64,000 nucleotides of DNA from a bacterium (GTDB lineage Bacteria > UBP18 > UBA7526): NCBI GenBank assembly GCA_030615855.1, contig JAUWYL010000002.1, positions 62,001 to 126,000 on the forward strand, read 5' to 3'. Position numbers and translations under genes: made by a program. The notes below the pieces were generated by a model. The model was not told the DNA's origin. It saw only the letters and a program-made list of their open reading frames with translations, and did no database searches. This document shows positions 46,945 to 49,382 of this stretch, piece by piece (positions within the stretch are counted from its first letter, which is position 1; every line of letters begins with the position of its first letter).

Positions 46945-47212
46945 TGGTGCGGACGGAGGGAGTCGAACCCCCAAGCCAAAAGGCATACGGTCCTAAGCCG
47001 TAGCGCCCCGCCCCATTTCCCCTACCTTATATTGCATTGTGGGCGAGAAAGGACTCGAACCTCCACGGGTTTCCCCACATGGTCCTAAGCCATGCGCGTC
47101 TACCAGTTCCGCCACTCGCCCAAAATTACTTATTGTTCGATTAATGAATGGGGCGGGGTAAATCTACCAATGGAGTTTATCCCGCACATTTATTGTGCGG
47201 GGCCACGTCCGC
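46945..47212 (-). pseudogene. tRNA-Leu(UAG) interrupted in the D-arm by a segment holding another tRNA-Leu
   Basis: Acceptor strands GCGGACG (47212-47206) and CGTCCGC (46955-46949) match fully, and a CCA is encoded. The anticodon loop CTTAGGA, the variable arm and the T-arm are intact in the 3' part. The D-arm is broken: TGGC is followed by a hairpin (CCCGCAC/GTGCGGG), then ATTGGTAGA, then a segment bounded by CCCCGCCCCATT and AATGGGGCGGGG that encloses a complete tRNA-Leu. It cannot fold as a normal tRNA unless processed. Confidence 0.75.
47040..47121 (-). tRNA. tRNA-Leu (UAG)
   Basis: The gene folds fully: acceptor GGGCGAG/CTCGCCC, D-loop with GGTAGA, anticodon loop CTTAGGA (anticodon UAG), a long variable arm (TGGGGAAACCCG) and T-loop TTCGAGT. 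CCA is not encoded. It lies inside the interrupted tRNA-Leu at 46945-47212. Confidence 0.92.
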
Positions 47213-47326
47213 CCGCCTTCGTCCAACTTCTGCCTCTTTTCAGAGTAGACTTCGGCGGGCAAGCTTATTAAGATGGCTCGCCATCCGAAGCCTGCTACCT
47301 TAAAAATTCAGAAACAAGGCGAAGGA
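47213..47326. repeat. Gap with a large GCCCGCC/GGCGGGC palindrome
   Basis: A palindrome at about 47211-47262 pairs GCCCGCCTTCGTC with GACTTCGGCGGGC (imperfect), with an A/T-rich centre. Further right, GATGGCTCGCCATC forms a small hairpin. I see no gene in this stretch. Confidence 0.6.
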
Positions 47327-47402
47327 TGGTACCCCCACCAGGGCTCGAACCTGGGACACCCTGATTAAGAGTCAGGTGCTCTTCCAACTGAGCTATGGGG
47401 GC
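47327..47402 (-). tRNA. tRNA-Lys (CUU)
   Basis: Acceptor GCCCCCA/TGGGGGT, D-arm GCTC/GAGC, anticodon stem CCTGA/TCAGG with loop CTCTTAA (anticodon CUU), T-loop TTCGAGC, and encoded CCA. The gene is intact and not interrupted. Confidence 0.93.
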
Positions 47403-47404
47403 TG

Positions 47405-47434
47405 GTCCCGTTGATAACTTCGTATCTACGGGAC
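47405..47434. repeat. 30-bp hairpin repeat, copy 1
   Basis: GTCCCGTTGATA...TATCTACGGGAC forms an imperfect hairpin. A second copy with three differences lies at 63950-63979. Both are next to a gene or tRNA start. Confidence 0.75.
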
Positions 47435-47706
47435 TGGCGCGCCTGGTAGGATTTTTACCCCGTTAGATGTTCTTGTCTCACTCGCCTCGCCTACTCCCTT
47501 AGATGGATGCTACGCCTATCTCACGGGATAAACGACACAATCTATCTAACGGGGCGGGCCCACGACCTAGTGGTCCGACCTCGCCAAATGCGACTCTAGC
47601 GCCTCCGGAGGGAGTCGAACCCCCAACTTTGTGGTCCGAAGCCACACGCTCTATCCAATTGAGCTACGGAGGCATTTGCGGGGCTAATCCGCTGAGCTAC
47701 AGGCGC
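47435..47706 (-). pseudogene. tRNA-Arg-like gene interrupted twice, enclosing tRNA-Arg(UCG)
   Basis: The 5' part (GCGCCTG TA GCTC, from 47706) and the 3' end (CAGGCGC, discriminator G, CCA, ending 47435) pair fully. The T-stem GTGGG/CCTAC is kept, but its loop holds about 100 nt bounded by CCCCGTTAGAT and ATCTAACGGGG. The D-arm to anticodon region is broken and encloses a complete tRNA-Arg. Half of an anticodon arm (TCGGACCAC) remains. It is not a functional tRNA as read. Confidence 0.7.
47600..47673 (-). tRNA. tRNA-Arg (UCG)
   Basis: Acceptor GCCTCCG/CGGAGGC, anticodon stem TGTGG/CCACA with loop CTTCGGA (anticodon UCG), T-loop TTCGACT. CCA is not encoded. CGCAAATGC upstream and GCATTTGGCG downstream form a near-perfect inverted repeat around it. 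Confidence 0.9.
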
Positions 47707-47855
47707 TGAAACACGGATAGGCACAGATTTCAGACACAGATGATCACAGATTTACAACAATGCGCTTCGCCTGCCTCGTCTAAACAAGAACCTGACTTCG
47801 TTAGAACCTTGTTTATCCGCGGAAATCCGTAATCCATCCGTGCTAATCTGTGTTC
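47707..47855. repeat. ACACGGAT/CACAGAT repeats and a GACGAGGC hairpin copy
   Basis: The gap contains units such as ACACAGATGATCACAGATTT and ATCCGTGCTAATCTGTG, plus a GACGAGGCAGGCGAAGCGC element (minus strand, 47762-47780) related to those at 38653 and 62041. No gene is seen. Confidence 0.65.
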
Positions 47856-48036
47856 TGGGGTGGCTGATCCCGATTTTACTTATTGGGGTGAGCGAGGGGA
47901 CTCGAACCCCCGACCACTTGAGCCACAGTCAAGTGCTCTAACCAACTGAGCTACGCTCACCATTTTACTAAAATTAAAATCGGGACGACCACCTGGGCCA
48001 CAACCAGGTGCTCTAACCAACTGAGCTATAGCCACC
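47856..48036 (-). pseudogene. tRNA-His with its T-loop replaced by a segment containing a second tRNA-His
   Basis: The host has G-1, acceptor GTGGCTA against CAGCCAC (six of seven pairs), C73 and encoded CCA. The D-arm is normal, and the anticodon stem CCTGG/CCAGG carries loop TTGTGGC (anticodon GUG). The T-stem GTCCC (47986-47982) pairs with GGGAT (47871-47867). In place of the 7-nt T-loop lie 110 nt whose ends (ATTTTA/TAAAAT) extend the stem and which enclose a complete tRNA-His. Without a T-loop the host should not fold normally. Confidence 0.8.
47884..47961 (-). tRNA. tRNA-His (GUG)
   Basis: G-1 and C73 are present, the acceptor is GTGAGCG/CGCTCAC, anticodon stem CTTGA/TCAAG with loop CTGTGGC (anticodon GUG), T-loop TTCGAGT and encoded CCA. 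All arms pair. It lies inside the T-loop of another tRNA-His. Confidence 0.94.
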
Positions 48037-48093
48037 AAATTTTTGTCCCACAAAAATTTGATCTTGAACCATCCCTCGCTTATCAGTTCGGGA
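48037..48093. repeat. Two short palindromes between tRNA genes
   Basis: AAATTTTTGTCC...CAAAAATTT (48038-48060) and CATCCC...GGGATG (48069-48094) are perfect or near-perfect hairpins. The left one follows a tRNA 5' end, the right one abuts a tRNA CCA end. Confidence 0.65.
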
Positions 48094-48170
48094 TGGCGCG
48101 CCCGGCAGGATTCGAACCTGCGACCGTCGGATTAGAAATCCGATGCTCTATCCAACTGAGCTACAGGCGC
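48094..48170 (-). tRNA. tRNA-Arg (UCU)
   Basis: Acceptor GCGCCTG/CGGGCGC with one G-U pair, anticodon stem ATCGG...CCGAC region with loop TTTCTAA (anticodon UCU), T-loop TTCGAAT, discriminator G and encoded CCA. The gene is intact and not interrupted. Confidence 0.92.
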
Positions 48171-48232
48171 CTCGTCACTGGCATTCCCTGTTAGGCAAAG
48201 TTCTAGCTAGGCTACCCTTTGGCATAAAAGAT

Positions 48233-48982
48233 TTATCGCCAAGCATGAAAAACCATTCTGTTCTGTTGGATTGCCTGAAAGAATGGCCGGCGGGGCTTTT
48301 TTATCTTACGACGGATAGCTCTCGCCACTCTGCGGGAAAGAGAGCGGTATTGTGAAACTATCCTAATCTTTCGGAATCCAACAGTTTTTAACATAGCTTC
48401 CACAGCAGCAGGATTTGGCCCCCACCAACTCGTTGGATCATTCGATAATTCTGCTTCAGGATAAAACCTCATGACTGGACATTTAGTCAAAGCCATGTCT
48501 ACATATGTCTCTAGTACCAATTGATCTCCAGTGACATTGAAAACTCGTTCAAGAGCAAAAAGGGGGTGACGTAAATGATAAAGCACTCCCAGTAATAGAA
48601 CTAAATCAAAAACACCGACTTTATCAGGAGAAATGTCATACACATCCATTTCCATATCCTCAACTTTGGAATTGAGAGTTTTCCGTGCAAGCTCAAAACC
48701 TGCCTTCGTACCCCATCCTTCTCTATTTTCTTCATTCCAACAAGGTAAATCAGTTGCCAGAACACGCTTGGCTCCGCGACGCTCCGCTTCAAATGAATAA
48801 AATCCATCCCAAGCACCTATATCAAGCACGGTCTTTCCTCGTAGATTTTCAGGAAGTTTAAGTATCTTTTTCCAGTCTTTACGAGGATCAATACAGCCAG
48901 GTGTTATTACTCCATTCCCTAAGTCAATCGTGTGCCACCACTTGATTTTCGCTACTTCTTTTTTTAAATCATTTATATTCAT
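48233..48982 (-). CDS. CmoB-like (DUF1698) SAM-dependent methyltransferase
   Basis: The 249-residue protein has IKWWHTIDLGNGVITPG near 13, GKTVLDIGAWDGFYSFEAER near 49 and LVLLLGVLYHLRHPLFAL near 128. These match the CmoB/DUF1698 family of SAM (or carboxy-SAM) enzymes; short members are often found in sugar or tRNA loci. Its place inside the tRNA cluster is unexpected and might indicate tRNA modification, but the C-terminal basic stretch (RRVARAIRRKIKK) is not diagnostic. GGGAGGAAGG lies upstream of the ATG. Confidence 0.8.
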   Translation of the reverse strand: MNINDLKKEVAKIKWWHTIDLGNGVITPGCIDPRKDWKKILKLPENLRGKTVLDIGAWDGFYSFEAERRGAKRVLATDLPCWNEENREGWGTKAGFELARKTLNSKVEDMEMDVYDISPDKVGVFDLVLLLGVLYHLRHPLFALERVFNVTGDQLVLETYVDMALTKCPVMRFYPEAELSNDPTSWWGPNPAAVEAMLKTVGFRKIRIVSQYRSLSRRVARAIRRKIKKPRRPFFQAIQQNRMVFHAWR

Positions 48983-49114
48983 AATACCCTTCCTCCCTAT
49001 GGAATTTCGTCTAACGGAAAATAATTGAGATACTTCGTTTATGTCCAGTTCTCACTTTTTATCCGTGCTTATTCGTGTCGTTATCCGTGTTCGTGGTCGG
49101 GGTGCCGAGATTTG

Positions 49115-49174
49115 CCCGCCTCCGCCAGAGGCGGATGAGCCTCGGGCTCAAGAGGTGGATCCGCCTTCAGCGGA
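49115..49174 (-). repeat. Palindromic insertion in the T-loop of the interrupted tRNA-Pro
   Basis: The 60-nt stretch holds CCGCTGAAGGCGG, GAGCCCGAGGCTC and CCGCCTCTGGCGGAGGCGG, three adjacent hairpins. It splits a canonical T-loop between U55 and C56. Confidence 0.7.
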
Positions 49175-49210
49175 AACTTGGACCTGTCCGATTGAGCCAA
49201 TCTAATTTAA

Positions 49211-49289
49211 TGGTCGGGAAGGCGGGATTCGAACCCGCGACCTCGTGCTCCCAAAGCACGCGCGCTAATCCAAGCTGCGCCACTTCCCG
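49211..49289 (-). tRNA. tRNA-Pro (UGG)
   Basis: Acceptor CGGGAAG/CTTCCCG, anticodon stem CGTGC/GCACG with loop TTTGGGA (anticodon UGG), T-arm GCGGG-TTCGAAT-CCCGC and encoded CCA. All arms pair. It lies within the anticodon loop of another tRNA-Pro. Confidence 0.93.
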
Positions 49290-49353
49290 TCATTCGGGCT
49301 CAATCGGACCGCGCTAAGCCAAACTGCGCCACACCCCGATTCCGACCATCGGG

Positions 49354-49382
49354 ACGCCTAAGTCGAACTGCGCCACTTCCCG
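49354..49382 (-). pseudogene. 5' fragment of a third tRNA-Pro
   Basis: CGGGAAGTGGCGCAGTTCG followed by ACTTAGGCG matches the acceptor and D-arm of the intact tRNA-Pro, then ends. A TCCCGATGGTCGGA hairpin follows. No matching 3' half is seen downstream. It lies 3 nt from the rdgB stop. Confidence 0.65.

Follow-up and report, generated by a model that had tools for sequence, protein, structure and literature searches.

The DNA analysed here (the window) is a 64,000-nucleotide stretch from a bacterium of the UBP18 lineage (GenBank assembly GCA_030615855.1, contig JAUWYL010000002.1). Between its genes for RdgB/Ham1 and trigger factor, which were assigned with Pfam, is a cluster of tRNA genes that extends from position 46945 to 49382. 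Six intact tRNAs were identified by ARAGORN and Rfam, at the positions given by a sequence-only reading of the window. Four of these (Leu, Arg, His and Pro) are flanked by the pieces of a second, outer tRNA for the same amino acid on the same strand, which confirms the nested arrangement that had been proposed from that reading. The other two, tRNA-Lys(CUU) (47327-47402) and tRNA-Arg(UCU) (48094-48170), are uninterrupted in the window, as it had also stated. All tRNAs and tRNA pieces of the window described below lie on the minus strand. The acceptor strands of the outer copies still pair at 7/7 positions for Leu (GCGGACG/CGTCCGC), Arg (GCGCCTG/CAGGCGC) and Pro (CGGGGTG/CACCCCG) and at 6/7 positions for His, and direct reading shows an encoded CCA at the end of each outer copy.

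The Leu nest begins with the 3′ part of the outer tRNA-Leu(UAG), from the anticodon arm to CCA (46945-47002), which is 98% identical to the uninterrupted tRNA-Leu of a relative (G001, see below) over nt 28-85. The inner, intact tRNA-Leu(UAG) (47039-47121) has no encoded CCA and is 76% identical to the native tRNA. It is located between inverted-repeat arms at 47006-47017 and 47147-47158, which are exact complements, and a repeat element end, TTTACCCCG, is present at 47154-47162. The remainder of the outer gene consists of a D-loop piece, TTGGTAGA (47163-47170), a second, tRNA-free hairpin in the D-arm (47171-47201), and the 5′ end, GCGGACGTGGC (47202-47212). The D-loop piece was assigned by direct reading against the intact tRNA-Leu of relatives, and the 5′ end by direct reading.

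The outer tRNA-Arg is distributed over three pieces: the acceptor strand with the 3′ T-stem (47435-47453), the region from the 3′ anticodon arm to the 5′ T-stem (47559-47578), and a 5′ end found by a fragment scan (47687-47706). A tRNA-free palindromic element with ends TTTACCCCG..CGGGGCGGG and 11-nt arms replaces TTCG in its T-loop (47454-47558), and the inner tRNA-Arg(UCG) occupies 47599-47673. In the His nest, the 3′ acceptor strand and CCA of the outer copy (47856-47867, read against the intact tRNA-His of a relative) lack the T-arm and directly adjoin an inverted-repeat arm (47868-47881). The inner tRNA-His(GUG) (47884-47960), which is 86% identical to the native tRNA, is followed by the second arm (47972-47985) and by nt 1-50 of the outer copy (47986-48035), which are 98% identical to the intact tRNA-His of G002. 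The Pro nest includes the outer 3′ acceptor strand and T-arm, whose loop holds a hairpin (49095-49145, direct reading), two arms (49177-49198 and 49297-49318), the inner tRNA-Pro(UGG) (49211-49289), and the outer 5′ part identified by the fragment scan (49310-49338). A third, outermost tRNA-Pro 5′ fragment at 49358-49382 represents an earlier layer. Inverted arms had been reported around all four inner tRNAs, and this was borne out for Leu (12/12 nt), His (14 nt at 93%) and Pro (22 nt at 82%). The arms of Arg are weaker in the window; they are of the CCCCGCA..TGCGGG type, which is clearest in G001 and G002. The third Pro fragment, the Arg T-loop palindrome, the loss of the whole T-arm in His, and the nests in other tRNAs of the same genome add to what had been noticed previously.

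Our sample comprises six genomes of the phylum, including that of the window (G000), two from the same genus (G001 and G002), and one from another genus (G004). All genomes are draft metagenome-assembled genomes (MAGs) with many contigs. The same tRNA cluster is present in G001, G002 and G004. A search for uninterrupted orthologues at the same place, which the sequence-only reading had proposed as a check, was successful for Leu (98% over 58 nt) and His (98% over 50 nt) in the same-genus genomes, where both tRNA genes are uninterrupted and correspond to the outer, broken copies of the window. Thus, the flanking halves are parts of one tRNA. The single tRNA-Pro of G001 and G002 is identical to the inner tRNA-Pro of the window, as would be expected if those genomes no longer have the outer copy. 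The three genomes from the genus of the window (G000, G001 and G002) all carry a nested Arg-UCG. Across the sample, both empty and filled sites are seen for Leu, His, Val-CAC, Met, Lys, Cys, Gly and Arg-CCG.

Nesting is widespread in this phylum and follows a strict rule. The tRNA loci of the six genomes, taken as stretches around tRNAs (189 kb), were scanned for tRNA fragments with intact tRNAs masked and a cut-off of 30 bits. This yielded 47 fragments of at least 30 bits, versus none when reversed tRNAs were used, which discounts chance as their source. Cognate fragments lie on the expected side of 30 intact tRNAs, 11 of which have both halves, and nests occur in 6/6 genomes. The amino acid of the fragment matches that of the enclosed tRNA in 43/43 scorable cases, compared with a mean of 4.5 and a maximum of 14 for shuffled labels (10,000 permutations), and all 43 fragments share the strand of the inner tRNA. 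The best-hit anticodon agrees in 34 of the 43; the other nine are Pro, Thr and Arg pieces that are too short or diverged to assign. Other nests in G000 include an Arg-CCU tRNA inside both halves of another Arg-CCU, and Gly-UCC and Thr-UGU tRNAs that each have a 5′ half. Nesting can also be serial, with three layers for Pro in G000 and probably a further case for Val-CAC in G004. There is one gene per anticodon in G000 except for CAU, and this holds in nearly all cases across the genomes.

Searches for comparable arrangements elsewhere used two patterns, each representing particular configurations only, on 386 genomes (380 from other phyla), and no true nest was found outside the phylum among the hits that were read. 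The T-loop junction pattern matched nests inside the phylum only; it gave 12 hits outside, of which the three most tRNA-like were read and none was in a tRNA, the rest being judged chance from the matched letters. The double D-arm pattern, which is independent of the element, recovered true nests in 3/6 phylum genomes, and the tRNA-like hits elsewhere that were read proved to be ordinary tRNAs, an array of Asn 5′ pieces in tandem, and one short 5′ fragment of Gly. Viral contigs were scanned with two patterns as a possible vehicle of the tRNA-carrying cassette considered below, and the hits were all unrelated. The Asn array (G319, L235, from another phylum) comprises four tRNA-Asn 5′ pieces in tandem together with a hairpin, and an intact tRNA-Asn follows immediately. 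Literature searches on nested or replacement tRNAs gave nothing relevant, in agreement with the earlier remark that no description was known; tRNA-in-tRNA nesting of this kind appears not to have been described in bacteria. When all contigs of G000 are considered, ARAGORN finds no tRNA-Ser or tRNA-Ile, which are probably missing from the assembly.

The inner tRNAs are not simply copies of their hosts. When compared with the native tRNA at the empty site, the inner tRNA has 75-86% identity in 12/13 comparisons, and several un-nested tRNA species have 92-100% identity across the phylum. Encoded CCA is missing in 15/34 inner tRNAs versus 27/148 others (p 0.003), a modest signal; the 148 probably include former inner copies. 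When host halves were joined in silico, ARAGORN recognised Leu, Glu, Gly, Cys and Thr as tRNAs and did not recognise Arg, His, Pro, Arg-CCU, Lys, Met and Val. Because most of the joined hosts tested are unrecognised, the hosts as a whole do not qualify as intron-containing genes, although joining is possible for some. States of decay between full and lost are also present, as several hosts have only one half and hosts carry further insertions. In the Glu nests of G001 (C60) and G005 (C53), the outer and inner acceptor types (GCCGCC/GTCCCC) are swapped between genomes, a sequence pattern that suggests recombination between copies.

The inserted DNA belongs to a dispersed repeat family and forms a hairpin whose loop holds the tRNA. 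One element end, TTYACCCCG, has 71 pattern matches in G000 versus 16 for the reversed pattern. A common form of the element is TTCA-CCCCG-stem-loop-stem-CGGGG-TTCA, and the loops of tRNA-free copies for which both arms were found range from a few tens to 745 nt. The copies are dispersed, have conserved ends and lack a coding region, as do repeats resembling repetitive extragenic palindromic (REP) sequences or miniature inverted-repeat transposable elements (MITEs). TTCA..TTCA is found on both sides of many copies but not of those with a tRNA; a parent transposon was sought only via PF01797 and PF00589. Exact inverted repeats of at least 9 nt flank 16/179 tRNAs, and 14 of these 16 are in or beside cognate remnants, a number that includes Arg-CCU of G001 (read directly) and of G002 (by orthology), which the fragment scan missed. 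The His arms differ (TCCCGATTTTA), and thus the canonical ends are not present in every nest.

Break points were mostly read by eye, since an automatic junction finder was confounded by neighbouring tRNAs. For Glu in G001 and G005, the break is exactly at 35|36 with no nucleotide lost (TTTT|TTTACCCCG..CGGGG|CAA). Breaks in Gly, Cys and Thr are within 0-1 nt of this site, and the 3′ halves of Val, Met and Arg-CCG begin at or near nt 36. In T-loop breaks, which affect Lys and Leu of G004 as well as Arg-CCU and Arg-UCG of G000, the insert takes the place of nt 54-57 (TTCG), and the host sequence resumes at nt 58. In our reading of the alignments, both sites are loop apices because nt 35 and nt 57 both occupy the fourth position of their respective 7-nt loops. 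The break is in the D-arm for Leu-UAG, Leu-CAG and Val-UAC, in the T-stem for His, and in the anticodon stem for Pro. The earlier suggestion that a small palindromic element carrying a tRNA inserts in tRNA loops is therefore retained in part: the ends match a genome-wide palindromic repeat and clean breaks are located at loop apices. We depart from it in that the hosts are mostly dead, which points to gene replacement rather than an intron-like passenger, the inner alleles differ in 12/13 comparisons, and the phenomenon is phylum-wide.

The anticodon-loop site 35|36 is also occupied by a group I intron in tRNA-Asn(GUU) of G000 (RF00028, 81.9 bits; G000:C44:40490-40800, L188), with no inner tRNA. 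The sequence-only reading had noted that such introns occur in bacterial tRNA anticodon loops, and this genome holds an example. RF00028 has no match in the window, this one match in G000, and none in the other five genomes. A group I intron was rejected as the general cause of the nests, as its sole genuine case is in tRNA-Asn. Also rejected were a REP-associated tyrosine transposase (RAYT) as the mover, since PF01797 is absent from the phylum genomes, and an integrative element at a tRNA gene, since no element-borne recombinase is present and the host halves are complementary pieces rather than direct att repeats.

The nested Leu locus is shared between two genera. It is nearly identical over about 230 nt in G000 and G004, including the non-coding spacers, and the inner tRNA-Leu is identical. 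In contrast, the trigger factors of these genomes are only 82% identical, and the closer relatives G001 and G002 carry an empty Leu gene. This combination argues for recent transfer of the nested locus or of a tract holding it. G004 has since acquired two more palindromes, one within the dead T-loop and one within the D-loop. At the outer Leu D-arm hairpin (47171-47201 versus L023), the arms of the two genomes differ yet remain complementary at the same place between nearly identical flanks, and have either changed in concert or been swapped.

We lean, by a little, toward the explanation that single-copy tRNA genes are broken and replaced by palindromic cassettes with a cognate tRNA as cargo, each insertion thereby rescuing itself. 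Short palindromes (approximately TTYA-CCCCG-stem..stem-CGGGG) would be moved by a trans-acting factor and would enter hairpin loops at their apex, among them anticodon loops (at 35|36), T-loops (after nt 57) and D-loops. In some copies, the hairpin loop would hold a complete tRNA. Because nearly every tRNA species has one gene, only cargo with the same decoding function would let the cell survive the break, and the cognate match would follow. The insert could then no longer be lost, with the inner tRNA as the functional copy, and the outer halves would decay and gather further palindromes. Eventual loss of these halves would leave the newcomer in place, and repeated in-place replacement may produce two or three layers. 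Insertion with rescue could likewise account for the shared orientation (through a shared promoter), the dead hosts, the different inner alleles and the layering. The fuller proposal of a natural insert-and-rescue drive, in which a mobile palindrome targets hairpin-loop apices, carries the cognate tRNA as rescue cargo and turns over the tRNA set of the phylum, is held more tentatively, as somewhat closer to doubt than to belief.

Several observations count against this explanation. No free tRNA-carrying cassette was seen in transit. Arm-flanked tRNAs occur almost only in cognate tRNAs and tRNA-free copies mostly elsewhere, a distribution that random insertion with rescue fits only if redundant copies are lost quickly. 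The inner tRNA-Lys of G004, the exception among the allele comparisons, has the same sequence as its host, a finding that local duplication would also explain. Several nests (His, Pro and Leu) are away from the 35|36 or T-loop sites, and the break points of most nests were judged by eye. A candidate enzyme is likewise lacking: Y1 transposase (PF01797) has no match in the six phylum genomes and matches in 5/14 control genomes, and the single tyrosine recombinase (PF00589) of G000 is an Xer-sized protein of 295 aa on another contig. The search for tyrosine recombinases and integron integrases gave only Xer-sized proteins and one fragment in G004.

A serious rival, which we consider unlikely, is capture in situ, wherein an incoming or sister copy of the cognate tRNA recombined or template-switched into a palindrome already present in a tRNA loop, and the cassette thus arises on site without ever moving as a whole. 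What makes it serious is that arm-flanked tRNAs are nearly absent outside tRNAs; it is further favoured by the Lys inner tRNA, by hairpin arms that change together at one site between nearly identical flanks, and by the resemblance of the cluster to a recombination mosaic between genera. However, it requires survival with the sole tRNA copy already broken, and inner tRNAs with 75-86% identity to the native tRNA (12/13) are poor recombination substrates. Passive decay is improbable. By this account, a second cognate tRNA arrived elsewhere, the redundant native gene filled with palindromes, and the newcomer moved in later or by chance. Dead hosts do gather tRNA-free palindromes (the Arg-UCG T-loop of G000 and the Leu T-loop of G004), but this account leaves unexplained why the newcomer is within its own cognate tRNA (43/43) and occupies a hairpin loop. 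Moreover, G000 has one gene per anticodon apart from CAU, and Lys in G004 is already a recent nest with intact host halves and one gene per anticodon.

We also judge it quite improbable that the host tRNA is still made by excision of the enclosed tRNA and its arms and joining of the halves, as for archaeal split and intron-containing tRNAs. In favour of this reading, acceptor pairing is kept in hosts, ARAGORN accepts five joined hosts as tRNAs, tRNA-Asn of the same genome has a true group I intron at 35|36, and folding prediction for the Lys nest transcript of G004 gives two cloverleaves, the inner of which is carried on an extended T-arm of its host (z -4.25). Nevertheless, the Arg, Pro and His hosts of the window and the Lys, Met, Val and Arg-CCU hosts have lost or replaced parts of the anticodon- or T-arm, several are reduced to one half, and hosts bear further insertions. 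Splicing of the hosts is thus not generally supported. Bacteria are not known to have an archaeal-type tRNA-splicing endonuclease, and the bacterial setting makes splicing of this type unlikely. An assembly artefact or chimeric contigs might be suspected, given draft genomes with many contigs. With 30 loci in six assemblies, structures shared across genera, and an amino-acid rule without exception, this is highly improbable, and recurrence of the nested Leu in an independent assembly from another genus makes it very unlikely in itself.

Among known systems, REP sequences and bacterial interspersed mosaic elements (BIMEs), MITE-type repeats and the Rickettsia palindromic elements are short, dispersed, non-coding palindromes that insert in genes, including RNA genes. 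The element described here is likewise short, dispersed and without a coding region. It differs from all of these in that RAYT (PF01797) is absent from the phylum, copies carry cognate tRNAs, and the target is replaced. Mobile elements are known to integrate in tRNA genes and to restore the tRNA, and the closest precedent is of this class: the tRNA-Thr disruption of Caldiarchaeum subterraneum, in which a 1.8 kb insert with a recombinase gene parts a 5′ fragment from the tRNA (PMC3293823). There too a broken fragment accompanies a full tRNA of the same type and a mobile element is invoked, whereas here a palindrome holds the tRNA in its loop, the host is split in a loop, and the insert has no recombinase. 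In a review, bacterial tRNA genes are described as uniform in structure apart from group I and II introns (PMC4033280). The tRNA-Asn intron of G000 shares its position with the clean anticodon-loop nests, but the nests lack a group I core, contain a tRNA, and in most cases have a host that is beyond restoration. Archaeal split and intron-containing tRNAs (PMC4390854) resemble the nests in that halves lie apart and junctions base-pair; here, by contrast, the setting is bacterial and an intact cognate tRNA is located between usually degenerate halves. Cleave-and-Rescue and home-and-rescue gene drives (PMC7951863, PMC7968924) also break an essential gene and supply a working version. Those systems are engineered and nuclease-guided, whereas the present one is natural, bacterial and without a known nuclease.

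Other features were also observed. Another repeat, approximately 158 nt long and with the core GGATTAGGGGGTCTG, has 18 exact-core copies in four genomes (L201-L218; e.g. L217, L209, L203), a predicted structure in which 9 pairs have compensatory changes, and no Rfam match. One copy is located in a tRNA-Glu D-loop (L209), where deleting the repeat yields exactly the uninterrupted sequence, without a target duplication, and another is inside an open reading frame (ORF) that runs on across the repeat (L203). This repeat could be a novel structured mobile RNA. Repeats of the ACACGGATNNNCACAGATT type, common beside tRNAs of G000, are present at 47711-47860 of the window and in other tRNA spacers. 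The region between Arg-UCU and the Pro nest (48180-49020) carries a methyltransferase-like ORF (Pfam Methyltransf_9) and candidate attC-like sites. This region is a possible integron cassette. The G004 counterpart has other sequence and a tyrosine-recombinase fragment beside tRNA-Pro (L024, about 6757-6861).

In this phylum, essential single-copy tRNA genes have apparently been broken and replaced in place repeatedly, with up to three layers, which offers a natural test case for the swap of an essential RNA gene for a foreign one. Tools that find tRNA genes and phylogenies based on tRNAs can mix native and replacement copies. The targeting of loop apices points to a new enzyme that acts on folded DNA or RNA. 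Finally, the system is a possible natural counterpart of home-and-rescue drives and a possible route for the transfer of tRNAs between genera.

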